From: Paraglaciecola marina
GTDB taxonomy: Bacteria > Pseudomonadota > Gammaproteobacteria > Enterobacterales > Alteromonadaceae
DNA: 56,291 nucleotides
Assembly: GCF_004360155.1 (NCBI RefSeq)
Contig: NZ_SAIS01000030.1
Coordinates: 1 to 56,291 of the forward strand
Direction: 5' to 3'
The notes under the pieces were generated by a model. That model was not told the origin of the DNA. It searched no databases and worked only from the letters and a program-made list of their open reading frames with translations. Positions 6,388-44,725 of this stretch are shown in pieces; positions within the stretch are counted from its first letter, which is position 1, and each line of letters starts with the position of its first letter. A program made the position numbers and the translations under genes.

Positions 6388-6399
6388 GGGTAACCCTAA

Positions 6400-7524
6400 T
6401 TACAAGTCAAACTGTTTACTGATATCGACAACATTAGGCGAAACAGAGGCTCCGGGGCGAGTACGTGCGAAACCGTTAACGATTAATTTATCTTCCGAAG
6501 TGATACCCGACTTGATGATCCTTAGCTCTTGAGTGTGTAATTTCCCTAGGGTTACATATTTTCGCCCTACCTTATTATCGCCATTAATTACCGTTACGTA
6601 CTTACGGGATTGATCTGTACCAATAATGGCGTCGGGCACTAAAATTACGTTGGCATTTTTTGTTTCAATTAAGCTAATACGAGCAAAAAGCCCAGGCAAA
6701 ATAAACCCGTCTTTATTATCAAAAATGGCTCGTCCTTGAATGGTTCCAGTACTGTCATCAACTTTATTATCGACAAAATCCATCACGCCAAAATGACTAA
6801 AACTATCTTCATCTTGTAAACGAACTTTGACCTCATTTGGATAGACTCGAGAGCTTTTTCTGTTGTCAGATTGAGCAAGGCGTAAGTATTTAAGTAGATC
6901 TCGCTCACCGGCCTCAAAATAGAAATGAATCGGGTCAACCGAAACTACAGTAGTAAGAAGTGTCGTACCAGAAGCACCACCAGTTACTAAGTTACCTTTA
7001 TTAACCAAATCTCTAGAAACCACCCCATCAATTGGTGATTTAACTTCTGTAAACTCTAAGTCTAATTTTGCGTTATCAAAAGCGGCTTTAGCTAATTGAT
7101 ACTCAGACACTCGGCGGTCTGACTCTTCTTGTGAAATAGAGTTATTACTTTGTAACTCTAAGCCTCGCTTGTATTCTTTTTCAGCAATATCTAAATTTGA
7201 TTGAGCGCTTTGTAAATTAATTTTAAATGGTCGCTGATCAATAATAAATAACACATCACCCGCTTTAACTTGCTGTCCGTCTTCAAATTTTATTTGATCT
7301 AGATAACCGCTCACGCGAGCTCGAATTTCAACATAATTAACAGCTTCAAAACGCCCCGTATAATCATCCCAAATATCAACGACCGCACTTATGGGCGTGC
7401 TAACATCAACCTCAGTTAAAGGGCGAGGTTGTTTTGGTGGTTCATCTTTATTACAAGCAACTAAAAACAAACTCGCGGTAATCGCCGCAAACGCATAAAA
7501 AGACCTAAAATTTCGAATAGGCAT
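6400..7524 (-). CDS. RND efflux membrane fusion protein (AcrA/MexA-like)
   Basis: 374 residues. The N-terminus is a lipoprotein signal ending FLVACNKD, so the mature protein is probably tethered to the inner membrane by a lipidated Cys. The lipoyl half-motifs are YVEIRARVSGYLDQIKFEDG and EVKSPIDGVVSRDLVNKG, flanking a short alpha-helical hairpin. Beta-barrel and membrane-proximal domains follow. Such proteins join the RND permease to an outer-membrane channel. It lies 12 bases upstream of the permease and is the first gene of this two-gene operon; no regulator gene is adjacent. Confidence 0.95.
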   Translation of the reverse strand: MPIRNFRSFYAFAAITASLFLVACNKDEPPKQPRPLTEVDVSTPISAVVDIWDDYTGRFEAVNYVEIRARVSGYLDQIKFEDGQQVKAGDVLFIIDQRPFKINLQSAQSNLDIAEKEYKRGLELQSNNSISQEESDRRVSEYQLAKAAFDNAKLDLEFTEVKSPIDGVVSRDLVNKGNLVTGGASGTTLLTTVVSVDPIHFYFEAGERDLLKYLRLAQSDNRKSSRVYPNEVKVRLQDEDSFSHFGVMDFVDNKVDDSTGTIQGRAIFDNKDGFILPGLFARISLIETKNANVILVPDAIIGTDQSRKYVTVINGDNKVGRKYVTLGKLHTQELRIIKSGITSEDKLIVNGFARTRPGASVSPNVVDISKQFDL

Positions 7525-25663: not shown

Positions 25664-26605
25664 TTATGCAATTATCGGTTTAGTAACTTTTGACAGCAAT
25701 GATAAATCTACATTATGTCTTTTGTTTACCACTTCACCCACTATGGTTATCGCTGGCCCCTGAAAATCAGCACAAAACACTTTTTGAGTAATATTCTCTA
25801 GAGTGCCAACGCACAACCTTTGCTGACTTGTTGATGCTTGATCTATAACGGCCACAGGCATACTTGCCTGCAAGCCATTCTCAGCTAAACGTTTCATTAT
25901 AGTTTCAATACGCTTTAGGCCCATGTAAAAAACTAAAGTTTCACCTGTATTGTTTGTACCTTTAACACCGTTAGCTAATGCCGACCAGTTCGGTTCTGCG
26001 TTAGCAGATTTCAAATGAGCGGTAATAAACCGCACTGATTGAGCGCATTCGCGGTGTGTTAATGGAATACCGGCATAAGCTGACGCACCCGATGCCGCAG
26101 TGATACCAGGAACTATGGCAAAATCGATTTGGTGTTTTGCTAAAATGTCACACTCTTCACCTGCTCTGGCAAATATGGCTGGGTCACCGCCTTTTAAACG
26201 AACTATGTTTTTCCCTGTCCGCGCTACTTCAATCATTAGATCACAAATATCTGCTTGCTTCATACTATGATTACCGCATTTTTTTCCAACAAAAATTCGC
26301 TCTACTTTTGCAGGGATCATCTTGATAATATCTGGGTTAACTAGCCAATCGTACATCACAACATCAGCTTCTTGTATTAACCTATGTGCCTTTAACGTTA
26401 GTAGTTCTGCATCACCTGGCCCTGCTCCAATTAAGTATACAAGGCCTTTTTCTGAGCGTAGCGACTTATTAGAAGTAGTCTTGGTATCAAAAAATTTAAA
26501 CTTAGCCATACTTGTAAGCATGTCAATATTTCTAAAAATCAAATTTAATACTTTCTGCAACGAAATGATAACACCTTGATCAACGACTGATTTATTTGTA
26601 TTCAT
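25664..26605 (-). CDS. cobA: Uroporphyrinogen-III C-methyltransferase
   Basis: 313 residues. After an N-terminal extension of about 50 residues, the SUMT core has VYLIGAGPGDAELLTLKA, VMYDWLV, GKKCGNHSMKQ, VRLKGGDPAIFARAGEE, PGITAASGASAYAGIPLTHR and the SAM-binding end TIVGEVV. The enzyme methylates uroporphyrinogen III at C2 and C7 to precorrin-2, the precursor of siroheme, the cofactor of the NirB encoded upstream. The start codon overlaps the nasA stop as TAATG, which implies translational coupling and favours this upstream start despite the long N-terminus; ATG 26509 would give a more ordinary length. No CysG dehydrogenase/chelatase domain is attached. Confidence 0.92.
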   Translation of the reverse strand: MNTNKSVVDQGVIISLQKVLNLIFRNIDMLTSMAKFKFFDTKTTSNKSLRSEKGLVYLIGAGPGDAELLTLKAHRLIQEADVVMYDWLVNPDIIKMIPAKVERIFVGKKCGNHSMKQADICDLMIEVARTGKNIVRLKGGDPAIFARAGEECDILAKHQIDFAIVPGITAASGASAYAGIPLTHRECAQSVRFITAHLKSANAEPNWSALANGVKGTNNTGETLVFYMGLKRIETIMKRLAENGLQASMPVAVIDQASTSQQRLCVGTLENITQKVFCADFQGPAITIVGEVVNKRHNVDLSLLSKVTKPIIA

Positions 26606-29370
26606 TATACGGCCTCTAGTGTAATCAGTTGCTCTTGACCTACAGGCAATTTACTTGGCTTATGTTGAGTGATGAGTTGGCTTAGTTCAGATTTACATGA
26701 ACCGCAATTGGTACCACACTTTAAAGTGGCTCCTAAACCGTCCACACTACAATTACCTTGTTTAACTGCATCAATAATGGTGTTTTCACCCACTTTAAAG
26801 CAGCTACAAATTAACTTGCCCTGCTTAAAGCTTTCGTCAGGCTGTAAATTCAACAAGCCATGCAATTGCTCAAGATTAACATTCTGCTCACCAATTAAAC
26901 TGCTGATCCAGTTTTGGTCTAGCTCTAAAGAAGTATTAGTTGTGCCCATTGAAAGCACTAACTCCCCTTCACGTAACCCACAGGTACTGCTAAATACCTG
27001 ACTATTAGCCCCAATCCACTCCTCAAATAATGGGAAGTTATTGACTAGCCAAGTCCTTAGTGCAGTTAAATCTTTATTGGTAGCAAAACAAACTAGCGTC
27101 CCTTTCTCAAATGGAGTGGTAACAAAATATTCAAACGCTTGCTTAAGAAGTGTAATAGACAAGTTTTGCTGCACAAACAACTGTCCTTGATGAGCAAATT
27201 CTACTTTTTCAAGAGATACAGCAGCATGCTTTAGTTCTGGCTGCCCTGATATATCGTCATTAGCATCAGTATACAAAGCTGCAATATTTGAGCTAGAGCT
27301 ATTGCTTGCACTCCAATGGATTGGTGCAAACAACTCCCCCTGTCTTTGGTTATTGTCTATCTTAACTGGGAGGCAGACGGTTAAGTCTCCACTAGTTAAA
27401 TGAGCGGCATTAAGCTTTACAAGGTCATTGGCTTTTAAATTAAGCTTATCAGCATCTTTAGGATGTATAGCCAAATAAGGTCTGCCGATATGTGAAGTTA
27501 ACTCTGCGGTTTTTCCAGTACGAGTCATAGTATGCCATTGATCTCGAACACGACCACTGTTTAAAACAAACGGGAAATCGTCACAGGTTAATTGCTCAGG
27601 TGGCGTATAACTAGTACTTATAAATTGCGCTTTACCACTGTCAGTATAAAACTGACCATCTGTGAATAAACGCTTTGTACCCTTAGGTTGTTCAGCATTA
27701 CCACCTAGTGTTACAGGCCACTGGATGGGTTTTAAACGATTATAATCTTTGTCAGATAAGTTACATAACCCAGACAAATCTAAGTCCCGGGTACCATTAT
27801 TATTGAAAGAGGTTAATCCTGTATATTCAGCAAATATTTCGCTAGGTTTACTGAAATTAAAACCTGAATCAAAGCCCATTGCTTTGGCTACTTCACAGAT
27901 AATCTGCCAATCATGCTTGGCTTCACCCGTCGCAGGCATCAGGCCTCTCTGCCTTGATATACGCCTTTCAGTATTAGTTACTGTACCGTCTTTTTCAGAC
28001 CAGCCAGTAGCAGGCAATGCAATATGAGCATAATCTAAGGTATCATTTTTCTGCACACAATCTGAGACCACCACCAACTCACATTTAGCTAACGCATCAG
28101 CAACTTTTTGGCGGTTAGGCATGCTCACCATAGGGTTAGTAGCCATGATCCACACAGCCTTTACCTTGCCTTGATTAATGTCTTCAAACATATCTACGGC
28201 TTTCAAGCCTACTTTAGTTGGGATAGACGGCGAGTCCCAATAGGTCTGTACTGTGTGGCGGTGATCTGGATTATCAATATCCATATGACAAGCCAACATA
28301 TTTGCTAGTCCACCGACTTCACGACCACCCATAGCATTTGGCTGACCGGTTAATGAAAACGGTCCAGAGCCTTCCTTACCCATTTTGCCAGAGGCTAAAT
28401 GACAATTAATAATACTGTTAGCCTTATCAGTACCTGACGTGGACTGATTGACCCCCATACAATAAGCGGTAACCACCTTATCTGTGTGCAAAAAGAGTTG
28501 ATAGAAGTTGCTTAAATCAGACTCGGAGACATCACAGGTCTTAGCAGTTTCAATAAGGGTTGAAGTTTCACAAGACTCTAAAACACCATCAAAACCTTGA
28601 GTATAAGTATTGATGTAATCGCGATCTAAACCACCTTCACTCCACAAGTAATGGATTAAACCATTAAACAAAGCGACATCTGTTCCTGGTTTAATGGCCA
28701 AGTGCAGGTCAGCGAGTTCTGCACTGGCGGTGCGTCGAGGATCAACAATGACTACTTTCATATCAGGGCTGATTTTTTTAGCACGCTCTATACGTTGAAA
28801 CAGCACAGGGTGAGTCCAAGCTGCATTCGAGCCCACTAGCACCAATAACTCAGTTTGCTCTAAGTCTTCGTAACAACAGGGTACAGCATCAGCACCAAAC
28901 GCGCGCTTATAGGCAGCTACGGCTGATGACATGCATAAACGTGAATTAGTATCGATATTGGCGCTACCGATATACCCTTTCATTAATTTGTTAGCGACAT
29001 AATAATCTTCAGTTAATAACTGTCCTGAAACATAAAATGCAACAGAATCAGCGCCATGCTCAGCTATAACCTCATTAAATTTTTTGGCAACGTGCTCTAT
29101 AGCTTCTTCCCAACAGGCCTGCTCTCCCATTATGGTAGGAGTAAGCAAACGCCCTTCCGGTGAATTGGTCTCTAACAATTTACTGCCTTTAACACACAAT
29201 CGACCAAAGTTTGCTGGATGATCTGAGCTACCTGTAACTGAAGAAAAATTACCTTTTGTGTCAAGAGTCACATCCACACCACACCCCACCCCACAATAAG
29301 GGCAAGTTGTAGTCGCTAAAGATGCATTACAGACCTTTGCTTGTTCAACTTTAGACGGGCTAGTTGACAT
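26605..29370 (-). CDS. nasA: Assimilatory nitrate reductase catalytic subunit with C-terminal BFD-like domain
   Basis: 921 residues, molybdopterin oxidoreductase family. The N-terminal [4Fe-4S] site is Cys23, Cys26, Cys30 and Cys59 (TCPYCGVGCGVDV and GRLCVKG). The Mo-ligand Cys is probably Cys146 in NSRLCMSSAVAAYKRAFG, as in NapA/NasA enzymes. The molydopterin dinucleotide-binding domain runs from about residue 600 (FVLNSGRVRDQWHTMTRTG). The last 60 residues are a BFD-like [2Fe-2S] domain with four Cys (ICSCFKVGE and KCGTNCGSCKSEL). No twin-arginine signal is present, so the enzyme is cytoplasmic and assimilatory: nitrate to nitrite. It follows nirD by 2 bases and overlaps cobA. Confidence 0.93.
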   Translation of the reverse strand: MSTSPSKVEQAKVCNASLATTTCPYCGVGCGVDVTLDTKGNFSSVTGSSDHPANFGRLCVKGSKLLETNSPEGRLLTPTIMGEQACWEEAIEHVAKKFNEVIAEHGADSVAFYVSGQLLTEDYYVANKLMKGYIGSANIDTNSRLCMSSAVAAYKRAFGADAVPCCYEDLEQTELLVLVGSNAAWTHPVLFQRIERAKKISPDMKVVIVDPRRTASAELADLHLAIKPGTDVALFNGLIHYLWSEGGLDRDYINTYTQGFDGVLESCETSTLIETAKTCDVSESDLSNFYQLFLHTDKVVTAYCMGVNQSTSGTDKANSIINCHLASGKMGKEGSGPFSLTGQPNAMGGREVGGLANMLACHMDIDNPDHRHTVQTYWDSPSIPTKVGLKAVDMFEDINQGKVKAVWIMATNPMVSMPNRQKVADALAKCELVVVSDCVQKNDTLDYAHIALPATGWSEKDGTVTNTERRISRQRGLMPATGEAKHDWQIICEVAKAMGFDSGFNFSKPSEIFAEYTGLTSFNNNGTRDLDLSGLCNLSDKDYNRLKPIQWPVTLGGNAEQPKGTKRLFTDGQFYTDSGKAQFISTSYTPPEQLTCDDFPFVLNSGRVRDQWHTMTRTGKTAELTSHIGRPYLAIHPKDADKLNLKANDLVKLNAAHLTSGDLTVCLPVKIDNNQRQGELFAPIHWSASNSSSSNIAALYTDANDDISGQPELKHAAVSLEKVEFAHQGQLFVQQNLSITLLKQAFEYFVTTPFEKGTLVCFATNKDLTALRTWLVNNFPLFEEWIGANSQVFSSTCGLREGELVLSMGTTNTSLELDQNWISSLIGEQNVNLEQLHGLLNLQPDESFKQGKLICSCFKVGENTIIDAVKQGNCSVDGLGATLKCGTNCGSCKSELSQLITQHKPSKLPVGQEQLITLEAV

Positions 29371-29373
29371 AAA

Positions 29374-29721
29374 TTATTCTACCAACTGTAACTGCACTTG
29401 ATTTTGTTCAATACGAACAGGATAAACCTTTAACTTAACCTCTTGATCATCTAAACAAACACCCGTTTCTAAAGAGTATCTTTGTTTATATAACGGAGAA
29501 ACAATTACTGTACAGTCAGCAACTGAGCCGAGTAAACCACGATATAGCACATTAGCTTTACCAATAGGATCCCAGTTACTTACTGCAAAAACTTGTTCAT
29601 AATTTGCACTTTTTATTTTAAATAGGGCTATTTGTTGATCTTCAACTAAGGCACAAACTCCTGAATTAGCAACTAAATCAGCATCGCTACAAACGGTTAC
29701 CCAATTATTTAGTGTTGTCAT
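29374..29721 (-). CDS. nirD: Nitrite reductase [NAD(P)H] small subunit
   Basis: 115 residues, Rieske-like fold of the NirD family: LNNWVTVCSDADLVANSGVCALV at the start, QIALFKI, FAVSNWDPIGKANVLYRGLLG and SPLYKQRYSLETGVCLDD. As in other NirD proteins the Rieske iron ligands are not conserved, so it is probably a structural subunit of the siroheme nitrite reductase. It is 11 bases after nirB and 2 bases before nasA in the same operon. Confidence 0.92.
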   Translation of the reverse strand: MTTLNNWVTVCSDADLVANSGVCALVEDQQIALFKIKSANYEQVFAVSNWDPIGKANVLYRGLLGSVADCTVIVSPLYKQRYSLETGVCLDDQEVKLKVYPVRIEQNQVQLQLVE

Positions 29722-29732
29722 TGTTAAGCTCC

Positions 29733-32327
29733 TTAAACCAATTCTGTGGCAAGTTTTTCAACTTGTTCATCGCTAAGTTCCAGCTTTTCTTGTTCGGTAG
29801 CTGGGCGAATTTGCTCACGCTCTTCAACAAAAACGATGTTCATGTCTTTGTCATCACTATTTACAAATTGACGGAAACGTTTAAGGGATTGTTCACTTTC
29901 AATAGTTGTTTTCCACTCACACTGGTAGGTATCTTCAATGTGTTGCATTTGCGCTTCTAACTCATCACATATTCCTAGAGAGTCTTCAATAACCACTTGC
30001 TTAAGATAATCTAAACCACCTTCAAGATTTTCCATCCAAACTGAAGTACGTTGTAATCTGTCTGCTGTTTTCACGTAAAACATCAATACTCTGTCAATGT
30101 ATTTAACTAAGGTTTCTGAATCTAAGTCTGTGGCAAACAAATCAGCATGACGAGGTTTCATACCACCATTACCACAGACGTATAAGTTCCAACCGTTTTC
30201 AACTGCGATAACACCAATATCCTTACCCTGTGCTTCCGCACATTCACGGGTACAACCAGATACACCAAATTTAATTTTATGGGGAGCACGTAGACCTTTA
30301 TAACGGTTTTCTAAATCAACTGCTTTACCTACTGAATCTTGCACGCCGAAACGACACCAAGTGCTACCCACACAAGATTTAACGGTACGTAATGCTTTGG
30401 CGTAAGCGTGGCCAGTTTCAAGTCCAGCTGCGACTAATTTCGTCCAAATCCCTGGTAATTGGTCAACTCGGGCACCGAACAAATCGATCCGTGTGCCACC
30501 TGTTATTTTGGTATATAAGTTGTATTCTTTTGCAACCTGCCCAATAGCAATCAACTTATCGGGGGTGATTTCACCACCAGGAATACGGGGCACAACTGAA
30601 TAAGTCCCGTCTTTTTGCATATTTCCTAAATAAGTATCATTGGTATCCTGTAACGCAACGTGGCCTTTATCTTGTTCCAAAATAAAGTCATTCCATACAG
30701 AGGCGAATATTGAACCCGCAGCTGGTTTACAGATTTCACACCCTAATCCCGTACCATGTTTATCTAATAACTCATCAAAAGTCTTGATACCGCCTACCTT
30801 TATTAAGTGAAACAATTCTTGGCGCGAATAAGCGAAATGTTCACATATGTCCTTTTTTACTTCTACTCCTCGCTTTTCAAGTTCGCAATCAACCACAGAC
30901 TTAAGTAGAGCTGCACAACCGCCGCAACCTGTGCCAGCTTTGGTACAAGATTTTACAGAGCTCACATCACATGCACCTTGGTCAACAGACTCAATAATGT
31001 CGCCTTTTGAAACGTTATGGCATGAACAAATAGTAGCAGTGTCTGGAAGGGCATCCGGTCCTAACCCGGCTGGCGTATCACCAGTTGAAGGTAAAATTAA
31101 ACTTTCTGGGTTAGCAGGTAAATCGATGTCATTTAGAGCATATTGCAATAAGGTATCGTAATCACTGGTATCGCCAATCAATACAGAGCCAAGTAGTTTC
31201 TTCTGTTCGGCATCAACAACTATCTTTTTATACACTTCTTCAGGTTGGTTTTCGTAGGTGTAACATAGCGCACCTTCAGTTTTAGCGTGGGCATCACCAA
31301 TTGAGCCTACTTCTACGCCCATTAGCTTGAGCTTGGTACTCATATCGGCACCTTGGAAAGTCAAATCTCCGCCTATGATATGGCTCGCTGCAGCTCTTGC
31401 CATGGTGTAACCAGGCGCAACTAATCCGAAGATAAAGTTATTCCATAGGGCACACTCACCTATTGCATAAATATCGGCATCGCTAGTTAAACATTGATCA
31501 TTAACCACTATGCCACCACGAGGACCAATCTCAATATCAAACTCTCTGGCTAAGGCATCAGATGGACGAATACCCGCGGAGAATAAAATCATATCGGTTT
31601 CTAAATCAGTTCCATCTACAAACACCATTTTATAACGGCATACGTCACCTTTCTCAATAACCTGGGTAGCTTTTTGGGTATGTACTTGCACCCCTAAATT
31701 TTCAATCTTGCTACGTAATAAACGACCACCACCGGCATCAACTTGTACCGCCATCAACTGAGGTGCAAATTCTACAACGTGCGTCTGTAAACCAGCTTCT
31801 TTAAGGGCATTGGCTGCTTCTAAACCTAACAAGCCACCACCTACTACCACACCTACTTTGCTAACAGCAGATGACGCACTAATGTTTTCTAAATCTTCAA
31901 TGGTTCTGTAAACTAAACAATGGGGTTGGTCGTTCCCAGGGATAGGCGGTACAAATGGGTAAGAACCAGTAGATAATACTAATTTTTCATATTCAAAAAC
32001 ATCACCTGATTCAGTGGTAACGGTTTTAGCAAGTTTATTAATGTTGATAACCTTGGCGTTCAACTTAAACTTTATATTACTTAGCTCATAGTATTCTGGC
32101 GTTGTTAGGGCAAGTTCGTCAGCGGTTTTACCGCTAAAGTACTCTGATAAATGCACACGGTCGTATGCCAACCTTGGCTCGGCTGATAAAACCGTTACGT
32201 CTATCTGAGTATCATCAGCTTTATTCGCCTTGATTAACTCATCAACAAAGTAATGACCTACCATGCCATTACCTACCACCACTACTCGCATTTTTTGTGC
32301 GTCATTTGCATTTATCAAACTTGACAT
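29733..32327 (-). CDS. nirB: Nitrite reductase [NAD(P)H] large subunit
   Basis: About 864 residues from the ATG at 32327, which has the ribosome binding site AGAGGTGA seven bases before it; the frame is open further upstream, but that part is the untranslated leader. Domains in order: FAD/NAD(P)H oxidoreductase (VVVVGNGMVGHYFVDEL; VGVVVGGGLLGLEAANAL), BFD-type [2Fe-2S] regions (ICSCHNVSKGD; CTKAGTGCGGCAALL), sulfite/nitrite reductase ferredoxin-like half domain, and the siroheme/[4Fe-4S] domain (SCVGSTWCRFG and GVSGCTRECAEAQGKDIG). It reduces nitrite to ammonium in the cytoplasm. First gene of nirB-nirD-nasA-cobA, with a sigma-54-type promoter and a leader terminator upstream. NAD(P)H and siroheme links fit cobA in the operon. 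Confidence 0.95.
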   Translation of the reverse strand: MSSLINANDAQKMRVVVVGNGMVGHYFVDELIKANKADDTQIDVTVLSAEPRLAYDRVHLSEYFSGKTADELALTTPEYYELSNIKFKLNAKVININKLAKTVTTESGDVFEYEKLVLSTGSYPFVPPIPGNDQPHCLVYRTIEDLENISASSAVSKVGVVVGGGLLGLEAANALKEAGLQTHVVEFAPQLMAVQVDAGGGRLLRSKIENLGVQVHTQKATQVIEKGDVCRYKMVFVDGTDLETDMILFSAGIRPSDALAREFDIEIGPRGGIVVNDQCLTSDADIYAIGECALWNNFIFGLVAPGYTMARAAASHIIGGDLTFQGADMSTKLKLMGVEVGSIGDAHAKTEGALCYTYENQPEEVYKKIVVDAEQKKLLGSVLIGDTSDYDTLLQYALNDIDLPANPESLILPSTGDTPAGLGPDALPDTATICSCHNVSKGDIIESVDQGACDVSSVKSCTKAGTGCGGCAALLKSVVDCELEKRGVEVKKDICEHFAYSRQELFHLIKVGGIKTFDELLDKHGTGLGCEICKPAAGSIFASVWNDFILEQDKGHVALQDTNDTYLGNMQKDGTYSVVPRIPGGEITPDKLIAIGQVAKEYNLYTKITGGTRIDLFGARVDQLPGIWTKLVAAGLETGHAYAKALRTVKSCVGSTWCRFGVQDSVGKAVDLENRYKGLRAPHKIKFGVSGCTRECAEAQGKDIGVIAVENGWNLYVCGNGGMKPRHADLFATDLDSETLVKYIDRVLMFYVKTADRLQRTSVWMENLEGGLDYLKQVVIEDSLGICDELEAQMQHIEDTYQCEWKTTIESEQSLKRFRQFVNSDDKDMNIVFVEEREQIRPATEQEKLELSDEQVEKLATELV

Positions 32328-32355
32328 TGGGTCACCTCTGGCCTTTTTTTGAAGC

Positions 32356-32399
32356 AAAAAAAAACCCACTAAATTCATCAAATTTGACGAATTTGTGGG
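32356..32399 (-). terminator. Leader terminator (attenuator) before nirB
   Basis: Read leftward, a hairpin starting CCCAC (32399-32395) and ending GTGGG (32369-32365) has a stem of about 17 pairs with one bulge and one G-U pair, followed directly by nine Ts (32364-32356). It lies between the -24/-12 promoter and the nirB start, 28 bases before the ATG, so it must be passed for the operon to be expressed. Two small hairpins precede it: GCTTT/AAAGC (32438-32424) and TTGC/GCAA with a six-base loop (32417-32404). Confidence 0.85.
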
Positions 32400-32473
32400 C
32401 TTCTTTGCCGATTTGCAATTACACGCTTTTATGTAAAGCAAACGAATTTAAATTAATTTTATAATTTTTACTA

Positions 32474-36526: not shown

Positions 36527-37879
36527 GTGGTATTTAAACAAGAACTTAAAACTATTATCCAACTTGCTTGGCCACTATTAATTGCGCAAATTACCCAAAC
36601 CTTAATGGGTGTGTCAGATACCATTATGGCTGGGCGCTATTCTGCTACAGATATGGCTGCTGTCGCCATTGGCTTTGGTTTTACTTTTCCTATTTTAGTT
36701 TTTTTACAAGGAATAACCTTAGCTTTACCGCCAATAATTTCTCGTTTTAATGGCTCTAAACAACTAGATAAAGTAGCTAATGTTACACAACAAATGGTGT
36801 GGTTAGCCTTAGGTATTTCTGCCTTTGCCCTGCTGTTTTCTTTTGGGTTTACACCTTTATTACAGTTTATTGACATGGACGCCGAATTACGCAGTATTAC
36901 TATCGATTACATTCAATACGTATTATATTCAATGCCGGCATTTGCTGTATATCAAGTGCTTAGAAATTACTGTGAAGGTCTTTCTGTTACTAAACCCAGC
37001 ATGCTTATTATGGTAATTGGGTTATTGGTTAATATTCCCGCAAACTATGTACTAATTTATGGAAAGCTTGGACTACCCGAAATGGGTGGCGCAGGCTGCG
37101 GTATTGCTACTGGATTAGTGTTTGTAGCCATGTTATTCGCCACTTGGTTTTATACTTTAAAGTCGAGTAAATTAGCTAAATTTGCTCTATATCAAAAAGT
37201 CTATCGCCCTCACCTACTTGATATGTGGAGTAACCTAAAGTTAGGTCTTCCTATTGCCTTGACTATTTTGTGCGAGGTGACTTTATTTGCTGCAGTACCC
37301 ATTTTATTAGCCCCTTTTGGCGCTACTATTGTGGCATCCCACCAAGTGGCATTAAACTTTTCAGCTTTAATGTTTATGATCCCACTTAGTATAGGTATCA
37401 CCGCTAGTATCCGCATAGGGTTTCTATTAGGAGAGCAAAAACCAGCACAAGCCAAGCTAGCTATAAAATGTGCCTTTACCTTAGGTTTTTGCACATCAGT
37501 ATTCGCCGCTTTAATTACCATTATATTACGAGGCCCAATATCAAGGCTTTATAGTATTGATCAAGAAGTAATCGACCTCGCATCAAGCTTGTTATTGTTT
37601 GCCGCAATGTTTCAGTTTTCTGATGCGATACAAGTTATATCTGGCCACGCATTGCGTGGTTATAAAGATACTGCCGCCATGTTTTACCTCAGCTTTATTT
37701 CGTATTGGGGTGTGGGTATGACTACAGGCTGTATTTTAGGATTAACCGACTGGATAGTCCCTAAAATGGCTGCAGCTGGCTTTTGGATTGGTTTTATTTG
37801 TGGCTTAACAACTGCAGCCGTTTTATTAGGATTAAGGTTGCGGTATATTCAAAAATATCAATTAAATGATTTTGCATAA
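36527..37879 (+). CDS. MATE family efflux transporter (NorM-like)
   Basis: 450 residues, twelve predicted membrane helices in two related halves. The N-terminus has IIQLAWPLLIAQITQTLMGVSDTIMAG, with the first Asp and Gln in their usual places in NorM. The second half begins with the equivalent LGLPIALTILCEVTLFA. MATE proteins exchange Na+ or H+ for cationic drugs or organic compounds. The start is a GTG at 36527 with AAAGAG upstream. It lies between a terminator and the gene for a periplasmic binding protein-like protein 28 bases on, probably a small operon with the next two genes. Confidence 0.92.
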   Translation: MVFKQELKTIIQLAWPLLIAQITQTLMGVSDTIMAGRYSATDMAAVAIGFGFTFPILVFLQGITLALPPIISRFNGSKQLDKVANVTQQMVWLALGISAFALLFSFGFTPLLQFIDMDAELRSITIDYIQYVLYSMPAFAVYQVLRNYCEGLSVTKPSMLIMVIGLLVNIPANYVLIYGKLGLPEMGGAGCGIATGLVFVAMLFATWFYTLKSSKLAKFALYQKVYRPHLLDMWSNLKLGLPIALTILCEVTLFAAVPILLAPFGATIVASHQVALNFSALMFMIPLSIGITASIRIGFLLGEQKPAQAKLAIKCAFTLGFCTSVFAALITIILRGPISRLYSIDQEVIDLASSLLLFAAMFQFSDAIQVISGHALRGYKDTAAMFYLSFISYWGVGMTTGCILGLTDWIVPKMAAAGFWIGFICGLTTAAVLLGLRLRYIQKYQLNDFA

Positions 37880-37907
37880 AAACTAAATGCAAGGTAGTAA
37901 ATCACTT

Positions 37908-38783
37908 ATGAACTTCTCAAGTTTGCTGCGAGTCTTAATTGTCACTTTTATATTATGTGTAACTGGGTTTGTAAATTCAGCACCTATACACTTCATCATT
38001 GATTCTGATTCATTTAAAACATTTTTTGAAAATGATAGTGAGCCTACAAATATGCATGAGGCTACTTATCAATTAATTTTTAATGAAATCAAAATGATAC
38101 CTCAAATTTCTTTAATCCCACATCTACGAATGAAACACTTTCTTGATTCTACACAGGCAACCTGTACTTTCTATCACCTAAAAACGCCAGAAAGAACGAA
38201 TCGATATATTTTTAGTTATCCAACAGACATTTTCCTTGGGGTTAAACTGTATCAACATAAATCCAGTAAACCTATTGATGAAAGGTTTTTAGATAACGAA
38301 GGCAGATTATTATCAGTTAGCAACTTTTTTAATGATAAAACCAACGATGCTAATTTACTGTTAATGTCAGGTAAGTCTTACGGCTTCGAATTGGACCAGC
38401 AAATTAAAGAGATTAATCCTATTTCAAAAATAATGATCTCAGGAGAAAGCCCTAATAAAGCCTTTCTTGGTATGTTTTTAAAAAAGCGAGTGGATTATAT
38501 TATATATTACCCTACTGTATTTCTTCATTTTCCTGAAGAGGCAAAAACCTTAAGGTCTTATCCTATCAAAGGCTCGCGCCCATATATGTTTGGCAGAATA
38601 ATGTGTAACAACACTGCTACTAGCCAAGATTTTATAACCCGTGTAAATCAAGTTTTAAAAAAACTCTATAGTTCAGACGAATTTTTAAATGCCATTTTAG
38701 ACTTCACTCCAAGGGCTGAACATGAGCATGTTAAGGAGATTATTCGAACTAGATTTATTACTGAAACACTACAACAAGGTTAA
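37908..38783 (+). CDS. Periplasmic solute-binding protein-like protein (SBP family 3-like)
   Basis: About 291 residues from ATG 37908; the frame is open from 37887. It has a signal peptide ending VNSA and then a domain with IHFIIDSDSFKTFFENDSEPTN. A typical two-lobe pattern is suggested by YQLIFNEIKMIPQISLIPHLRMKHFL, the middle region FSYPTDIFLGVKLYQHK and the late SYGFELDQQIKEINP. This resembles amino-acid/ligand-binding proteins of family 3, but there is no ABC permease or ATPase gene nearby, so it is an orphan sensor or binding protein. Ligand unknown; the lack of a strong family signature keeps the call modest. Confidence 0.6.
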   Translation: MNFSSLLRVLIVTFILCVTGFVNSAPIHFIIDSDSFKTFFENDSEPTNMHEATYQLIFNEIKMIPQISLIPHLRMKHFLDSTQATCTFYHLKTPERTNRYIFSYPTDIFLGVKLYQHKSSKPIDERFLDNEGRLLSVSNFFNDKTNDANLLLMSGKSYGFELDQQIKEINPISKIMISGESPNKAFLGMFLKKRVDYIIYYPTVFLHFPEEAKTLRSYPIKGSRPYMFGRIMCNNTATSQDFITRVNQVLKKLYSSDEFLNAILDFTPRAEHEHVKEIIRTRFITETLQQG

Positions 38784-38797
38784 ATGATTTTAATACT

Positions 38798-39235
38798 ATG
38801 CAGTTAACCGATATTGCCATTAGAAAGGTATCTAAAGGGCCAATGAAAACGTTGAGTGAAGTGATGGTCACTAGAGTTGCGGGACTAAATGGCGATTTTC
38901 GAGGCAAACCTGGTAAACGTCAGGTAACTATTTTAAGTCAAGAGCAGTGGGACATAACTTGCACTGAAATAGAGGCTGACCTTCCATGGACAACCCGGCG
39001 GGCAAATCTATTAGTTTCTGGCGTTAGTTTTAATAAAGATATGGTCGGAAAACTAATTAAGATAGGCCCTTTGATATTAATCATTACCCGAGAAACCGAC
39101 CCTTGCCCAAGAATGGATCAACAATACCTAGGCTTGACTCAGGCTCTTATACCAAACTGGCGAGGTGGAATTTGTTGCCAAGTAATCGCTGATGGTAGGG
39201 TCAAAATAGGTGATGAAATACAAATTGTAGGTTAA
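38798..39235 (+). CDS. MOSC domain-containing protein
   Basis: 145 residues, a single MOSC domain. The conserved elements are GLNGDFRGKPGKRQVTILS, RRANLLVSGV, and the Cys-containing ETDPCPRMD (about residue 105), the cysteine expected to carry sulfur or molybdenum in MOSC proteins. The family is thought to transfer sulfur to, or bind, molybdenum cofactor. It lies 14 bases after the binding-protein-like gene and converges with the rhodanese gene. Being close to moeA and nasA fits a role in molybdenum enzymes, by position only. Confidence 0.85.
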   Translation: MQLTDIAIRKVSKGPMKTLSEVMVTRVAGLNGDFRGKPGKRQVTILSQEQWDITCTEIEADLPWTTRRANLLVSGVSFNKDMVGKLIKIGPLILIITRETDPCPRMDQQYLGLTQALIPNWRGGICCQVIADGRVKIGDEIQIVG

Positions 39236-39261: not shown

Positions 39262-39606
39262 CTAAAAACATCGTTGGATTTCATCCATCTTACAAGTAAT
39301 AACAGTCACATTTTCATAACCAACTCTTTGTAATTGTTCCGCAGCCAGAGCGGCACGAGCAGAGGTTGCACAGTGTAAATAGATTGCTCTTGTTGGATCT
39401 TTCTCAAGCTCCATCATTTTCATTTCAAGCAATCCCCTTGGAATATTAATCGCTCCTTCAGCTGGAAAAGCTTGGTGCTCAGCAGGTTCACGAACATCAA
39501 TCAATAATCCACTATTTTCTGCTCGTTCCTCAGCAGCAGTTTTTGCATCAATACAGCGAATATTTTGTTTTACTTCAAAAATTAAATCTGCAATGCCTTT
39601 AAGCAT
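39262..39606 (-). CDS. Rhodanese-domain protein (soluble half of a split YgaP)
   Basis: 114 residues, one rhodanese domain. The entry motif is LLIDVREPAEHQ and the active loop is LHCATSARA with Cys79 as the persulfide cysteine. There is no signal peptide or membrane segment. The gene lies 3 bases after the DUF2892-like gene, and together the two match the domains of E. coli YgaP (rhodanese plus two-helix membrane domain), but as separate chains and in the reverse order. It probably takes or passes sulfane sulfur in the cytoplasm. It is divergent from the ArsR-family regulator that probably controls it. Confidence 0.85.
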   Translation of the reverse strand: MLKGIADLIFEVKQNIRCIDAKTAAEERAENSGLLIDVREPAEHQAFPAEGAINIPRGLLEMKMMELEKDPTRAIYLHCATSARAALAAEQLQRVGYENVTVITCKMDEIQRCF

Positions 39607-39609
39607 GTT

Positions 39610-39804
39610 TTACTCCTGAACACCTAATTTTTTTAAAATGGTAATCATAGGACACCATAATGTGAATGCTGATTGAATTAAATTAGCGGCAATAAAAATA
39701 CTGAAAAATATCCAATTTGGATGGACCCAATGGGTTAACGCTAACGATATTAAGAGCATTGCCCCTGCAATTAATCGTAAAGCAGCATGTAATTTCATTT
39801 TCAC
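39610..39804 (-). CDS. Two-helix DUF2892/YgaP-like membrane protein
   Basis: 64 residues with two hydrophobic helices (about residues 6-24 and 28-46) and a short polar C-terminus. LRLIAGAMLLISLAL and NLIQSAFTLWCPM followed by ILKKLG are the characteristic DUF2892 pattern, the last resembling the membrane domain of YgaP. It starts 36 bases left of a perfect inverted repeat and is the first gene of the leftward pair. It would anchor or assist the separate rhodanese encoded next. Confidence 0.82.
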   Translation of the reverse strand: MKMKLHAALRLIAGAMLLISLALTHWVHPNWIFFSIFIAANLIQSAFTLWCPMITILKKLGVQE

Positions 39805-39839
39805 TCTCCAACTTCAAATTTGATAATACATTAGACCCT

Positions 39840-39867
39840 GCTAATATTAGTGTCAACTAATATTAGC
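39840..39867. promoter_or_regulatory. Probable ArsR-family operator between the divergent genes
   Basis: GCTAATATTAG (39840-39850), spacer TGTCAA, CTAATATTAGC (39857-39867): a perfect 11-bp inverted repeat. The spacer on the minus strand is TTGACA, an ideal -35 hexamer for the leftward genes, with TAATGT 17 bases on as -10. On the plus strand TATAAT (39877-39882) lies just to the right. A repressor here would block both directions. Confidence 0.85.
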
Positions 39868-39894
39868 ATTTTCTTATATAATATTTATAATGGC

Positions 39895-40221
39895 ATGATT
39901 AAAACTAAAGATAAGGTTATAAAATTGGATCTGAATCAACTGTCTAGTAACGCTGGTAATGCCGAAGCCTTCTTAAAAATAATGGCAAATAAAAATAGAC
40001 TCATGATCTTATGTACTTTAATGAATGAGGAGCGCAGCGTTTCTGAGTTAAACCAAAACATTCCTTTAGGACAGTCAGCACTATCACAACACTTGGCTGT
40101 ATTACGTAAACATAACTTAGTAGAAACACGAAGAGACGCTCAAAGTATCTACTATTCAGTCACTGATACTCGTGTTAAGCAAATTATTGAAAAACTGTAC
40201 GAATTCTTCTGTGACGTATAA
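39895..40221 (+). CDS. ArsR-family repressor, SqrR/BigR/YgaV-like persulfide sensor
   Basis: About 108 residues from ATG 39895. The winged helix reads FLKIMANKNRLMILCTLM, SVSELNQNIPLGQSALSQHLAVLRKHNLVETRR, then IYYSV (written in parts: PLGQSALSQHLAVLRKHNLV). It has no metal-binding CxC motif of ArsR/SmtB. It has Cys40 (RLMILCTL) and Cys106 (FFCDV), 66 residues apart, the spacing of the sulfane-sulfur-sensing pair of SqrR and BigR. An upstream GTG at 39850 lies inside the operator and is rejected; a TTG at 39925 with an AAGG site is a possible alternative. The RND permease starts 24 bases downstream on the same strand. Confidence 0.85.
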   Translation: MIKTKDKVIKLDLNQLSSNAGNAEAFLKIMANKNRLMILCTLMNEERSVSELNQNIPLGQSALSQHLAVLRKHNLVETRRDAQSIYYSVTDTRVKQIIEKLYEFFCDV

Positions 40222-40244
40222 GCCCTTCATGATGGAGCTGTAAA

Positions 40245-43200
40245 ATGCATAATTCATTAAAGTCTCACCCTTTTGATAATGCTGTACGTTACGCATTATT
40301 AAATCGGGGTTTACCACTGTTTTTATTTTTATTTGCCCTTATCGCCGGTGTTATAGCATTGCAAGCAACGCCCAGAGAAGAAGAGCCGCAAATTGTAGTA
40401 CCTATGATTGAAGTATTGGTGGATGTCCCAAACTTATCGGCTCGTCAGGTTGAGCGGCAAGTAACCACTCCTCTAGAGCAGCTATTGACTCAAATAGCTG
40501 GTGTTGAACACGTTTATTCCACCTCTTTGGATGGGCAGCTATCGGTAGTACTGCGATTTTTTGTAGGAGAAAATCGTGAAAATGCCCTTATCAATACATA
40601 CAACAAACTGTATGCAAATCAAGATTTAATACCGTCAGTGGTAAGCAACTGGATATTAAAACCCGTTGAAGTGGACGATATTCCGATTGTGATGATTGGT
40701 TTAGTAAGTAGTGATGAGCAAAAATATAATGATGTTGCTTTACGTAGAATAAGTCAGGAAATATCGACTTTATTACAGGGCTTAGAAAATACCAGCGAAG
40801 TGAATATCATTGGTGGCAGGCTTCGTAAAATTGAAGTTGAGTTAGATATTACCGCGCTAGCAGCTTATCAAACCAGTGCGCTAGATGTTTATAGTGCAAT
40901 AACACGTTCTAATCAGCTCAATCAATCTTCAACTGTAGTCATGGGTGCAAAAGCTGTAGTGATTGAATCAGGCGATGTGATCCGTAGTATAGATGAGCTA
41001 AATAACCTTGTGGTTAACATGATCAATGGTAAGTCTGTAATATTACAAGATGTTGCCAAAATCCAAGACTCACAACAAACAGTGAACTCTTATCAGTGGC
41101 TTGAGTATAGTCATCAAGCTATACAGAATAGTACCAGCCCCTCAGATAAAGTTCTTAGCACACAAGCAAACCCCATGGTTACTATTAGCATTGCCAAACA
41201 AAAAGGTACAAATGCTGTACGGGTAGCAGATGATGTATTAAGCAAAATGGCCGAGCTTAAAGCAAGCTTTCTTCCGCCAGAAATTGATTACAAAATTCTT
41301 AGAGACTATGGTCAAACAGCAAACGAAAAGGTTAATAATCTAAGTTCCAGTTTAGCCTTTGCGGTATTTACTGTAGTGGTGTTTATTGGCATATTTCTGG
41401 GCTGGCGAGCTGCAATTGTTGTGGGTATGGCAGTACCTGTTTGTTACGGGCTTACTTTGCTTTTAGATTTAATGCTTGGTTATAGTATTAACCGGGTGAC
41501 GCTATTTGCTTTAATACTGTCTTTAGGTTTATTAGTAGATGACCCTATTACGGGCATCGACAATATTACTCGCTTTCTAAATTTATCAAATAGTCAAAAA
41601 AACAAAACCCAACGCATTGTAGACGCTATGTCTGAGATACGCTCACCTCTTATTATGTCTACTGTAACTATCATATTGGCATTTGTGCCCTTAGCTTTTA
41701 TCACCGGTATGATGGGGCCATACATGGCCCCAATGGCGTTCAATGTTCCTATCAGTGTAATATTGTCTGGTGTTGTTGCCTTTTTTATTACTCCTTGGTT
41801 AGCGTCACATCTACTTAAGCCTCAGGAAGTAAAAAACACTGATACAGAATCTGTTTATAAACGTCTCTTAGGGCCACTGATAGCCAATAAATCTAGAGCT
41901 AAATTTGGTTTATATGTGGTGTTAGGTTTATTTATCGCTGCTAGTTTATTACCACTACTTCGTGCTGTGCCTTTAAAGTTATTACCCTTTGATAACAAAA
42001 ATGAAATACAGCTTTTAATAGATTTACCTGAATCAGCTACTTTAGAACAAAGTGCGGCTAAGACTCAGGAAGTCATAGAAATCGCTAAAACTCTACCTGA
42101 AGTGGCGCTCCTTGCTGCCTATGTAGGTGAAGCGTCACCTATGGATTTTAATGGCATGGTACGCCAATACTATCAGAGGAACTCACCCAACCAAGCCGAA
42201 GTTAGGCTAATTTTACTCGACAAAAATGAACGTGAGCAGCAATCCCACGGTGTGGTGCTAAGGTTAAGAGAGCTACTCACCCCTTTGCAAACTGAAGCCA
42301 CTAACATAAAAGTGGTAGAAGTCCCACCAGGACCACCTGTATTAAGTACCTTTGTAGCCGAAATATATGCTGAGCCTTTTGTTGAATTAGCTAGCCAACA
42401 ACAGGCGGCACAAACACTTATGCAACGTTTAGCGAAAGAGCCCTATGTAGTGGAAATAGATTCGAGTATCACCGCCCCCCAAGAAATAGCCCGTTTTATC
42501 GTAGATAAGCAAAAAGCAGCTTTGTCTGGTATTTCTACTGCTGATGTTAATCAAACCATAGACATTGCAGCTAGAGGGGTTAGCGCTGGCATATTACAAA
42601 CTGAAAATGAAGTCACTCCTCTAGAAATTGAGTTAAAACTGCCTTTTAATAAAGCCAACCAAACCAGTGATTTTGATGGCCTATCCCTAAGGGGAATAAC
42701 TGGCGTTGCTCAGCAAGATGCTGGTGTGGGATTAGAGCCAGCGCCCCAACCCATTGTAAACCTAGCGGAATTGGGTCAATGGCAAACATTTGAAGTTAGC
42801 CAACCAATATTACATAAAGATTTACGACCGGTAATCTATGTAACAGCGGAGCTATCTGGGCGCACACCAGCAGAAGTGATAGCCGACATTAGCGCTGATC
42901 GTATACAGGCCAATAACGCTAAATCTATAGATACATTAAACAATGATATACCGAATAAGCAGCCAAAAAACAGTTGGCAAACACGAACCTATTTAAACTC
43001 AGGTGCAGGTATTCAATGGGCGATCCCTGAGGGTATTAGTATTGAGTTTGGTGGCGAAGGAGAATGGTTGATTACAATTGATGTTTTCCGGGATATGGGT
43101 ATCGCTTTTGCGTTTGCATTAGTAGGAATTTTTATAGTGTTACGTTGGCAGATATCTAGTAGCGCTTTAGCACTAATTATTATGTCTGCCATACCGTTAA

Positions 43201-43670
43201 CCATAATCGGCATCATGCCAGGATTTTGGTTAATGAATCAATTTGGTGAACGCTGGATTGGCAATGCCCCTGACCCGGTATTATTTACCGCAACAGCTAT
43301 GATAGGAATGATTGCACTGGCTGGTATTGTAGTGCGTAACTCACTAATTTTAGTGGAATTTATAACCTTAGCTAGAGCCAATGGAAACACCATAAAAGAA
43401 GCATTATTTGCAGCGGGAACTGTGCGTATGAGACCTGTTTTATTAACCGCGGGTACTACTTTGCTAGGTAATATCGTCATCATTCTTGACCCAGTGTTTA
43501 GTGGCCTTGCCCTAGCTATTATTTTTGGCATTATCGCCTCCACTTTCTTCTCTTTATTAGTGGTTCCTATGGTGTACTTTTTAGTATTTGATAAAGAAAC
43601 CACAGCGTCTAATGAAGAAACTCCCCATATAAAACTAGCAAGTCATTCAACTCAGGAGAGCCAAGCATGA
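40245..43670 (+). CDS. RND efflux permease of the persulfide-regulator operon
   Basis: 1141 residues with the RND layout: TM1 (LFLFLFALIAGVIALQATPR), two large periplasmic loops and two six-helix bundles. The proton relay Asp pair is in LGLLVDDPITGIDN (helix 4) and the helix 10 basic residue is Arg in VVRNSLILVEF, where HAE1 pumps have Lys. The N-terminal EEEPQIVVPMIEVLVDVP is typical of a branch separate from AcrB. It is therefore not the same type as the permease at 3217. It probably exports a compound or exchanges with protons; being under a persulfide-type repressor suggests a sulfur-related substrate, which is inference. The partner gene overlaps by four bases. Confidence 0.9.
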   Translation: MHNSLKSHPFDNAVRYALLNRGLPLFLFLFALIAGVIALQATPREEEPQIVVPMIEVLVDVPNLSARQVERQVTTPLEQLLTQIAGVEHVYSTSLDGQLSVVLRFFVGENRENALINTYNKLYANQDLIPSVVSNWILKPVEVDDIPIVMIGLVSSDEQKYNDVALRRISQEISTLLQGLENTSEVNIIGGRLRKIEVELDITALAAYQTSALDVYSAITRSNQLNQSSTVVMGAKAVVIESGDVIRSIDELNNLVVNMINGKSVILQDVAKIQDSQQTVNSYQWLEYSHQAIQNSTSPSDKVLSTQANPMVTISIAKQKGTNAVRVADDVLSKMAELKASFLPPEIDYKILRDYGQTANEKVNNLSSSLAFAVFTVVVFIGIFLGWRAAIVVGMAVPVCYGLTLLLDLMLGYSINRVTLFALILSLGLLVDDPITGIDNITRFLNLSNSQKNKTQRIVDAMSEIRSPLIMSTVTIILAFVPLAFITGMMGPYMAPMAFNVPISVILSGVVAFFITPWLASHLLKPQEVKNTDTESVYKRLLGPLIANKSRAKFGLYVVLGLFIAASLLPLLRAVPLKLLPFDNKNEIQLLIDLPESATLEQSAAKTQEVIEIAKTLPEVALLAAYVGEASPMDFNGMVRQYYQRNSPNQAEVRLILLDKNEREQQSHGVVLRLRELLTPLQTEATNIKVVEVPPGPPVLSTFVAEIYAEPFVELASQQQAAQTLMQRLAKEPYVVEIDSSITAPQEIARFIVDKQKAALSGISTADVNQTIDIAARGVSAGILQTENEVTPLEIELKLPFNKANQTSDFDGLSLRGITGVAQQDAGVGLEPAPQPIVNLAELGQWQTFEVSQPILHKDLRPVIYVTAELSGRTPAEVIADISADRIQANNAKSIDTLNNDIPNKQPKNSWQTRTYLNSGAGIQWAIPEGISIEFGGEGEWLITIDVFRDMGIAFAFALVGIFIVLRWQISSSALALIIMSAIPLTIIGIMPGFWLMNQFGERWIGNAPDPVLFTATAMIGMIALAGIVVRNSLILVEFITLARANGNTIKEALFAAGTVRMRPVLLTAGTTLLGNIVIILDPVFSGLALAIIFGIIASTFFSLLVVPMVYFLVFDKETTASNEETPHIKLASHSTQESQA

Positions 43671-44725
43671 GTTCAAATATTCTTCGAAAAGCCATAGTGC
43701 CAGTCATAGCCATAATAGTGTTAACTCTGTCCATTGCATGGATGGCAGGTCTATTTACTGACAAAATCAAACCTCACGAAGTAACGGGCCCTACAAATAA
43801 CGGAAAAGCCTCATTTAAAGTTACAGCTACTTTAGTGCCTAAATATGAATCTGCGCCTGCAAGTTTAAAAGCCCGAGAAACCACTCTAATTTCAAGTCGA
43901 ATCTTAGCTCGAATTGAGAACATTCACGTTCGTGCTGGCGATATTGTCAATAAAGGCGATCTTTTAATATCACTTGAAAACAGTGAACTCACCAGCCAAT
44001 TAGCGCAAGCGAAGTCAAGAATAGATTCATTGCAAGGTGACATGAAAGAAGCACAAAACACCTTAAAACGAATTGAAAAACTAAAACAGCAAGGGTTAGC
44101 TTCAACTGCAGATTTAGACCAAGCACAAGCAACATTTACACGTTTGCAAGGTGAAATACATACAGCAGAACAAGGTCAAGAAGTGGCAGAAACATCATTG
44201 GGCTATAGTCGTATTTTAGCGCCATTTTCAGGACGAATAGTTGATAGAAGCGCGGAACCTGGAAATATAGCCACCCCAGGCCAACCTATCCTTGCTTTGT
44301 ATAATCCTAGTTCTTTAATAATTGAATCTAACGTCAGAGAATTAGTTGCGTTAAAATTAAAATTAGGTCAAAAATTGTCAGTTAATATCGATAGTTTAGG
44401 GCTACAGTCTATTGCTACGATTTCTGAGTTAGTTCCAGCAGCAGATCCAAATGCCCATAGTTTTGTTGTAAAAGCTGACATTCCATTTGATGAAAACCAG
44501 AGACCTGGTATGTTTGCTAGATTACTTATTCCTATTGGAGAGGAGCGTATAATTTTAATTCCATCCGAGTATGTCAGAAGTTATGGGCAATTACATAGAG
44601 TATGGGTGAATAACCAAGGTAATATAAGCCGACGATTTATTCGAGTTGGAGAGTCTTATGACGGCAAGGTTGAAGTTATCTCAGGGTTAGCCATGGGTGA
44701 CATAATTACAGAGTTTGCAGAATAA
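43667..44725 (+). CDS. RND membrane fusion protein of the persulfide-regulator operon
   Basis: 352 residues with an N-terminal membrane anchor (about residues 9-28). The lipoyl halves ARIENIHVRAGDIVNKGDLL and SRILAPFSGRIVDRSAEPGN flank a long helical hairpin (residues about 105-175) rich in Gln, Glu and Lys. The beta-barrel region follows. Its ATG overlaps the TGA of the permease (ATGA), so translation is coupled. There is no outer-membrane gene after it; a weak hairpin AAGG...CCTT with a T run lies at about 44740-44762, a possible terminator. Confidence 0.9.
   Translation: MSSNILRKAIVPVIAIIVLTLSIAWMAGLFTDKIKPHEVTGPTNNGKASFKVTATLVPKYESAPASLKARETTLISSRILARIENIHVRAGDIVNKGDLLISLENSELTSQLAQAKSRIDSLQGDMKEAQNTLKRIEKLKQQGLASTADLDQAQATFTRLQGEIHTAEQGQEVAETSLGYSRILAPFSGRIVDRSAEPGNIATPGQPILALYNPSSLIIESNVRELVALKLKLGQKLSVNIDSLGLQSIATISELVPAADPNAHSFVVKADIPFDENQRPGMFARLLIPIGEERIILIPSEYVRSYGQLHRVWVNNQGNISRRFIRVGESYDGKVEVISGLAMGDIITEFAE

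Follow-up and report, generated by a model that had tools for sequence, protein, structure and literature searches.

Bacteria sense and oxidise reactive sulfur; the route by which an excess of it leaves a Gram-negative cell is, to our knowledge, poorly known. A locus of Paraglaciecola marina raises the question of whether an RND efflux pump could provide such a route. The window (the whole stretch of DNA analysed, 56,291 nucleotides of contig NZ_SAIS01000030.1, assembly GCF_004360155.1) holds an ArsR-family repressor that resembles persulfide sensors, followed directly by an RND permease and its periplasmic adaptor. The pump is very likely controlled by this sensor, a well-supported conclusion drawn from its position in a predicted operon and from a conserved motif upstream. 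Given that control, the gene neighbourhood leans slightly toward reactive sulfur, or a product made from it, as what the pump exports.

A predicted operon joins a two-cysteine ArsR repressor to an RND pump

The genes of the module are:

39262..39606, minus strand: single-domain rhodanese, 114 amino acids (Pfam PF00581, 46 bits), active-site loop C-x4-R (CATSAR)
39610..39798, minus strand: DUF2892/YgaP-like transmembrane protein, 62 amino acids (Pfam PF11127, 41.8 bits)
39895..40221, plus strand: ArsR-family repressor of the HlyU/SqrR/BigR type, 108 amino acids, with C40 and C106
40245..43670, plus strand: RND permease, 1141 amino acids, of a branch without an NCBIfam name
43667..44725, plus strand: RND periplasmic adaptor (membrane fusion protein), 352 amino acids (TIGR01730, 188 bits, above cut-off)

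The repressor, permease and adaptor genes follow one another in that order, divergent from the DUF2892 and rhodanese genes, which encode separate chains and lie 3 bases apart with the DUF2892 gene upstream. Only 23 bases separate the arsR stop from the permease start, and the permease stop overlaps the adaptor start by 4 bases, so any separate pump promoter must lie within or before arsR. An initial annotation of this sequence (the original prediction) had named all of these genes, among them a split counterpart of Escherichia coli YgaP, which presumably carries rhodanese and membrane domain in that order in one chain. Open reading frames (ORFs), Pfam and NCBIfam bear this out, with the split YgaP present as two chains; the description given for 39840..44725 fits, but the rhodanese and DUF2892 genes fall just outside that interval. 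The repressor very probably starts at the ATG at 39895, giving 108 amino acids, and not at the listed GTG at 39850, because the latter would fall within the proposed operator described below.

The repressor resembles persulfide sensors and not metal sensors

C40 and C106 are the only cysteines of the repressor and lie 66 residues apart. Neither an ArsR-type Cys motif nor an alpha5 Asp/His site, which we take to be the marks of metal binding in this family, was seen in its sequence, as the original prediction had stated. Its best match among the 14 NCBIfam models listed is BigR (NF040642), at 98.8 bits and thus below the curated cut-off of 155. The closest solved relatives in a phmmer search were HlyU (E 4e-25), SqrR, BigR, NolR and YgaV, ahead of metal sensors. 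The alignment with Vibrio cholerae HlyU shows 45 identities over 98 residues and places C40/C106 in register with C42/C108; furthermore, a cysteine pair 65-68 residues apart is present in all 34 distinct related repressors (E <1e-20).

The predicted fold points the same way. Foldseek searches with the AlphaFold model (mean predicted local distance difference test score 87) placed HlyU at rank 1 (template modelling (TM) scores 0.82/0.93) and the tetrasulfide state of SqrR at rank 4 (TM 0.81/0.91), in keeping with the likeness to SqrR proposed at the outset. Ranks 1-29 are all HlyU, SqrR, BigR, NolR or YgaV, and the first metal sensor, CzrA, appears at rank 30 with 27% identity. Together, sequence, predicted fold, the invariant cysteine pair and the neighbourhood support assignment to the HlyU/SqrR/BigR type. 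We rejected a metal-sensor reading, because no metal motif is visible and the metal sensors CzrA and SmtB, with ~23-31% identity, come after the persulfide group in the rankings.

A tandem palindrome between the divergent promoters is probably the operator

The intergenic region between the two divergent gene pairs holds the following features:

39830..39845: proposed operator copy 1, ATTAG-N6-CTAAT, found by comparison with relatives
39846..39861: proposed operator copy 2, ATTAG-N6-CTAAT, abutting copy 1
39839-39868: perfect inverted repeat, spanning operator copy 2
39863..39891, plus strand: sigma-70-like promoter TTAGCA-17-TATAAT of the arsR-RND-adaptor operon, a consensus match only (10/12)

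The -35 element of the promoter falls inside the inverted repeat; promoter-like sites are not in excess in the region (16, against 20.8 in shuffles). The two abutting copies are the only exact ATTAG-N6-CTAAT sites in the window, and the tandem pair is probably the operator, a reading that comes from sequence comparison. Upstream of 34 distinct related repressors, the motif was exact in 20 and present with at most one mismatch in 30. Counted by region (35 regions at 34 loci, L013 and L087 having the same repressor sequence), the figures are 21 and 31, against 0.025 and 0.95 expected in 35 regions from shuffles of 2-base blocks; these regions include close relatives, from some of which the motif was read, and are not independent trials. 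Exact copies occurred at a spacer of 6 alone, with none at spacers of 0-5 or 7-12. Finally, the motif (at most one mismatch) was absent before the pump in all nine close named orthologs that lack an adjacent repressor, and before all 40 control pumps described below.

Across its own genome the exact motif occurs 18 times, against 10 for the reversed pattern (4 against 5 in genome G004). The module aside, there are 16 sites: 12 within ORFs, 2 across an ORF end and 2 between genes, these last with no sulfur gene recognised beside them by eye. One 16-mer common to G000 and G004 sits in unrelated ORFs. The tandem pair occurs nowhere else in the genome by exact-motif scan. A wider regulon was considered through these sites, which are mostly in ORFs and never in tandem, and we claim no further targets.

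The module is kept in the host family, where established sulfur genes can take the place of the pump

The pump has matches at E <=1e-100 in 36 of 147 host-family genomes. In the top tier of 16, which includes the window and otherwise shows 50-70% pump identity, every ortholog has both repressor and DUF2892 genes within 1.5 kb, joined in 13 cases by a rhodanese; conservation of the neighbourhood, which the original prediction had put forward as a check, is found throughout this tier. The divergent DUF2892/repressor layout of the window is shared by 13 of the 16, and the remaining three (L016-L018) read ArsR-DUF2892-RND-adaptor. The 20 lower matches have 37-40% identity. Sixteen of these were taken with wider flanks: the adaptor precedes the permease in all 16, a repressor is present in two (L063, L066) and a DUF2892 gene in two (L063, L070). 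A class sample of 369 genomes added five further orthologs (L033-L037) at 51-58% identity, one of which, L035, has a pump identical to that of the named relative L095.

The repressor itself is more widespread than the pump. Its profile matches 124 of the 147 family genomes, and among the best 30 loci the pump adjoins the repressor in 14. Thirteen of the 16 pump-less loci adjoin persulfide dioxygenase (PDO), PmpA/PmpB, rhodanese, DUF2892 or DUF442 genes, so the pump fills a slot held elsewhere in the family by established sulfur genes. In two genomes of the same genus (L243, L250), the pump-less repressor lies beside PmpAB, and in L249 it lies beside DUF2892 and rhodanese domains joined in one chain. 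The three pump-less loci that carry no marker are L231 and L242, both near a contig end, and L239. At L239 the repressor is divergent from an MMPL-family protein across two exact motif copies (1414 and 1441), with the two genes at 1381 and 1492 on either side. MMPL-family proteins are RND-superfamily transporters, and this one is possibly a second kind of exporter from that superfamily under such a sensor.

The pump belongs to a branch apart from AcrB-type and CusA-type pumps

The permease carries an ACR_tran domain (PF00873, 446 bits), and D432/D433, which we take to be the equivalent of the AcrB proton-relay pair, are invariant together with R1031 in 29 of 29 aligned sequences. It falls below the curated cut-offs of the RND permease models: 240 against 940 bits for TIGR00915 (AcrB-type), 365 against 1250 for NF033617 (RND_permease_2) and 216 against 701 for TIGR00914 (CusA/CzcA-type). 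Its best solved relative scores 186 bits. In a tree, the pump and 80 named relatives separate from 20 AcrB-type and 20 CusA-type control pumps, which agrees with the non-AcrB branch that had been proposed for it. Compared with AcrB/AcrD/MdtF-type (HAE1) pumps, it shows only ~17-22% identity, its permease gene precedes the adaptor gene and no outer-membrane channel gene adjoins the pair; its own genome was not searched for TolC. The predicted fold is AcrB/AcrD/MdtF-like. CusA-type pumps were not among the fold matches listed, which excludes nothing.

The window also holds a second, ordinary AcrB-type RND permease (3217-7524, minus strand), which, unlike the pump of the module, scores above the cut-off of TIGR00915 (1169.5 bits).

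Sulfur genes recur beside relatives of the pump in distant groups

A scan of named genomes gave at least 593 pump relatives. The 80 best entered the marker counts, made within ~5 kb where the contig allowed; they were divided by hand into 24 close (tblastn identity >=48%) and 56 distant relatives. At least one sulfur marker was found near 39 of the 80, against none near the 40 control pumps with similar flanks (0/20 AcrB-type, 0/20 CusA-type). The controls were the top-scoring matches from the class sample, with G000:C22 and G194 (AcrB-type) and G174 (CusA-type) omitted. The one-sided Fisher value (p ~2e-9) is descriptive only, because the markers were chosen after some of the same loci had been viewed, the controls come from the class only and related loci are not independent.

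The close relatives had two-cysteine ArsR in 15, rhodanese in 10 and DUF2892 in 9, with CoA-disulfide-reductase/rhodanese, PmpAB and PDO in one each and any marker in 16 of the 24. The distant relatives had DUF2892 in 18, sulfide:quinone oxidoreductase (SQR)-like genes in 7, CoA-disulfide-reductase/rhodanese and TauE in 3 each, and PDO, PmpAB, DUF442, rhodanese and two-cysteine ArsR in one each. Any marker was present in 23 of these 56, or in 13 when DUF2892, TauE and PmpB are not counted; 23 had an outer-membrane channel gene nearby and 9 an ArsR without the cysteine pair. The C-x4-R active-site loop was kept in all 23 distinct neighbour rhodaneses. Marker seeds were typed with Pfam and NCBIfam: PmpA by PF04143, PmpB by PF20398 (with PF04143 just below cut-off) and TauE by PF01925. 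The PDO seed scored 380 bits to the Blh model (cut-off 625) and the CoA-disulfide reductase seed 502 (cut-off 579). The SQR seed reached only 104 bits to the type III SQR model (cut-off 525), and we therefore write SQR-like.

Individual loci illustrate the pairing. In Vibrio atypicus (L096), CoA-disulfide-reductase/rhodanese and DUF2892 genes are divergent from ArsR-PmpA-PmpB-RND-adaptor. Two Methylobacter loci (L103, L109) and one from Methylococcales (L115) combine SQR-like, DUF2892, channel, adaptor and RND genes, and CoA-disulfide-reductase/rhodanese adjoins the permease in L151, L156 and L157. In a Nitrosomonas metagenome-assembled genome (L128), PDO lies beside DUF2892-channel-adaptor-RND-ArsR-TauE, with an ArsR of the two-cysteine kind. 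The L128 locus also holds a BLH phosphatase-like (DUF442) protein and, with all these genes in a row, is the fullest sulfide-detoxification/pump cluster seen. The pump clade takes in sulfate reducers, methanotrophs and nitrifiers.

Among distant relatives, L050 (= L262), L055 (= L267) and L272 have RND frames of ~1370-1420 amino acids, ~300 above the family norm.

A persulfide-responsive efflux module is the favoured reading

In the mechanism that we propose, a repressor dimer would sit on the tandem operator between both promoters and silence the arsR-RND-adaptor operon together with the divergent DUF2892-rhodanese pair. A rise in sulfane sulfur (persulfide, polysulfide) would form a polysulfur bridge between Cys40 and Cys106, as in SqrR and HlyU, and the bridged repressor would bind DNA more weakly, turning the module on. 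Repression at the motif, bridge chemistry and derepression are all inferred by homology. The rhodanese and its membrane partner may then take sulfane sulfur from small thiols close to the membrane, and the proton-driven pump, presumably working with a TolC-type channel encoded elsewhere, would expel a sulfane sulfur product. The likeliest candidates for this product are polysulfide, hydrophobic zero-valent sulfur and an organic persulfide or polysulfane. We consider a persulfide-responsive efflux module of this form, with a product of sulfane sulfur as substrate, to be probable. A more tentative and somewhat doubtful proposal is that the RND branch includes pumps dedicated to exporting sulfane sulfur, whether as polysulfide, zero-valent sulfur or organic persulfide. 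Of the interpretation offered in the original prediction, the sensor type and the place of the pump in its operon are supported, while for the export half the evidence is the recurrent sulfur neighbours.

Several observations weigh against the favoured reading. The five orthologs from other families of the class (L033-L037) all lack repressor, DUF2892 and rhodanese genes within 1.5 kb (other markers were not scanned) and count against an obligatory link to sulfur. Eight of the 24 close named orthologs, among them L083 with its 4.8-kb contig, had no marker nearby. In another set of 40 distant class loci, taken in rank order below the orthologs with six passed over, only 7 had a marker. Of the four repressors without the motif, L023 offered only 54 bases; for the other three, both L090 repressors and that of L128, the motif is absent. 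The genome of the window itself gave no SQR match and one weak PDO match, a weak test with a single seed each.

In the main alternative, the sensor reads sulfane sulfur and the pump is a general pump for hydrophobic compounds, serving a stress or low-oxygen response with non-sulfur substrates. In its favour, 33 of the 40 distant class loci, which belong to the same branch, have no marker at all, close orthologs occur without repressor or marker, and the predicted fold is an ordinary AcrB/AcrD/MdtF-like one. HlyU and YgaV are likewise persulfide- or sulfide-responsive and yet, in the parts of the two papers concerned, control haemolysin, respiratory or oxidative-stress genes (PMC10509353, PMC9774250). 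A general pump does not readily account for the recurrence of SQR-like, PDO, PmpAB and CoA-disulfide-reductase/rhodanese genes beside its relatives across distant phyla (39/80 against 0/40), and we regard it as rather unlikely.

One published case cuts both ways. In Azospira suillum, an operon (Dsui_3440-3443) encodes an unknown protein, an efflux pump, SQR and an adaptor; the relevant passages report it as the single operon to which transposon fitness data point and as highly expressed under H2S-oxidising conditions (PMC5358917). It thus shares with the window an RND pump and adaptor, there in one operon with a sulfide enzyme. According to the same passages, deletion of the operon left the rate of H2S oxidation unchanged and the authors propose export of metal sulfide (PMC5358917), both of which weigh against sulfane sulfur export; the likeness, moreover, is one of operon content and expression, the Azospira pump not having been placed in the clade of the window.

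Alternatively, the module could answer organometals or thiol-reactive biocides, with a toxicant that binds the thiols freeing the repressor and the pump expelling that toxicant. RND pumps that expel biocides are known. YgaV provides a precedent, ygaVP being derepressed by tributyltin in work cited by a paper whose title describes YgaV as sulfide-responsive (PMC9774250). This reading is improbable: the neighbour genes recognised are sulfur genes (metal and organometal genes were not among the markers searched), the repressor has no visible metal-binding motif, and sulfate reducers, methanotrophs and nitrifiers are all represented in the clade. A chance neighbourhood, in which a pump on its own promoter merely stands beside a small sulfur regulon, is very improbable, since a promoter inside arsR would be compatible with the motif scan but the 23-base gap, the 4-base overlap and the retention of the module in 16/16 family orthologs, the other 15 at 50-70% pump identity and in two gene arrangements, all argue against it.

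If the branch does include dedicated exporters of sulfane sulfur, they would form an efflux arm of sulfide detoxification, beside or replacing SQR, persulfide dioxygenase and PmpAB, and such an arm would span Alteromonadales, Vibrio, methanotrophs, nitrifiers, sulfate reducers and planctomycetes. A pump branch behind operators of the persulfide-sensor type supplies named genes, a motif and strains with which export can be tested. Such an arrangement would also make pump expression, and possibly the tolerance of other compounds, depend on sulfide stress.

Relation to known systems

Among the matches listed, the only items close to an RND exporter of persulfide or polysulfide were the Azospira study and a survey of two-cysteine ArsRs, whose targets also appear to include RND efflux pumps as well as TauE and YeeE-type transporters (PMC12423496). 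The survey shares with the window the two-cysteine ArsR/RND neighbourhood. Its relevant section devotes a single sentence to these pumps, with reference to Table S1 and Figure S2, and contains no operator, pump clade or control counts (PMC12423496). An RND exporter under a persulfide-type sensor is therefore new only with qualification, since RND pumps had been counted among the targets in this survey; the operator motif, the pump branch and the controlled counts are the additions made here.

The repressor is like SqrR, BigR, HlyU and YgaV in sequence, predicted fold, two cysteines 66 apart and a motif in its own promoter; it differs in heading an operon with an RND pump and in scoring below the NCBIfam BigR cut-off. 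At two of ten defined positions its motif departs from the V. cholerae hlyA operator, as given in the part of that report concerned (PMC10509353). In E. coli ygaVP, as in the window, a two-cysteine ArsR occurs together with a YgaP-like membrane domain and a rhodanese. The window differs in having two chains and a pump after the repressor and, whereas ygaV and ygaP are described as co-transcribed (PMC9774250), in membrane and rhodanese genes divergent from the repressor. In Acinetobacter baumannii, the BigR operon includes PDO2 and two putative sulfur transporters; in the portions of that article concerned the word RND is absent, and both efflux passages concern TauE (PMC7315123). PmpA and PmpB are reported, in the passage concerned, to align with the two halves of YeeE proteins (PMC11582611).

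Other genes of the window

Just upstream of the rhodanese gene, positions 36527-39235 (plus strand) encode a MATE transporter, a 298-amino-acid protein without a Pfam match and a MOSC-domain protein. Positions 26605-32441 (minus strand) encode a molybdopterin oxidoreductase and a NirB-like nitrite/sulfite reductase; each of the two carries a BFD-like [2Fe-2S] domain, and the pair looks like assimilatory nitrate reduction. Finally, a cysteine desulfurase domain (Aminotran_5) is fused to a SufE domain in one 552-amino-acid chain at 14932-16590 (minus strand), another sulfur-transfer gene within the window.

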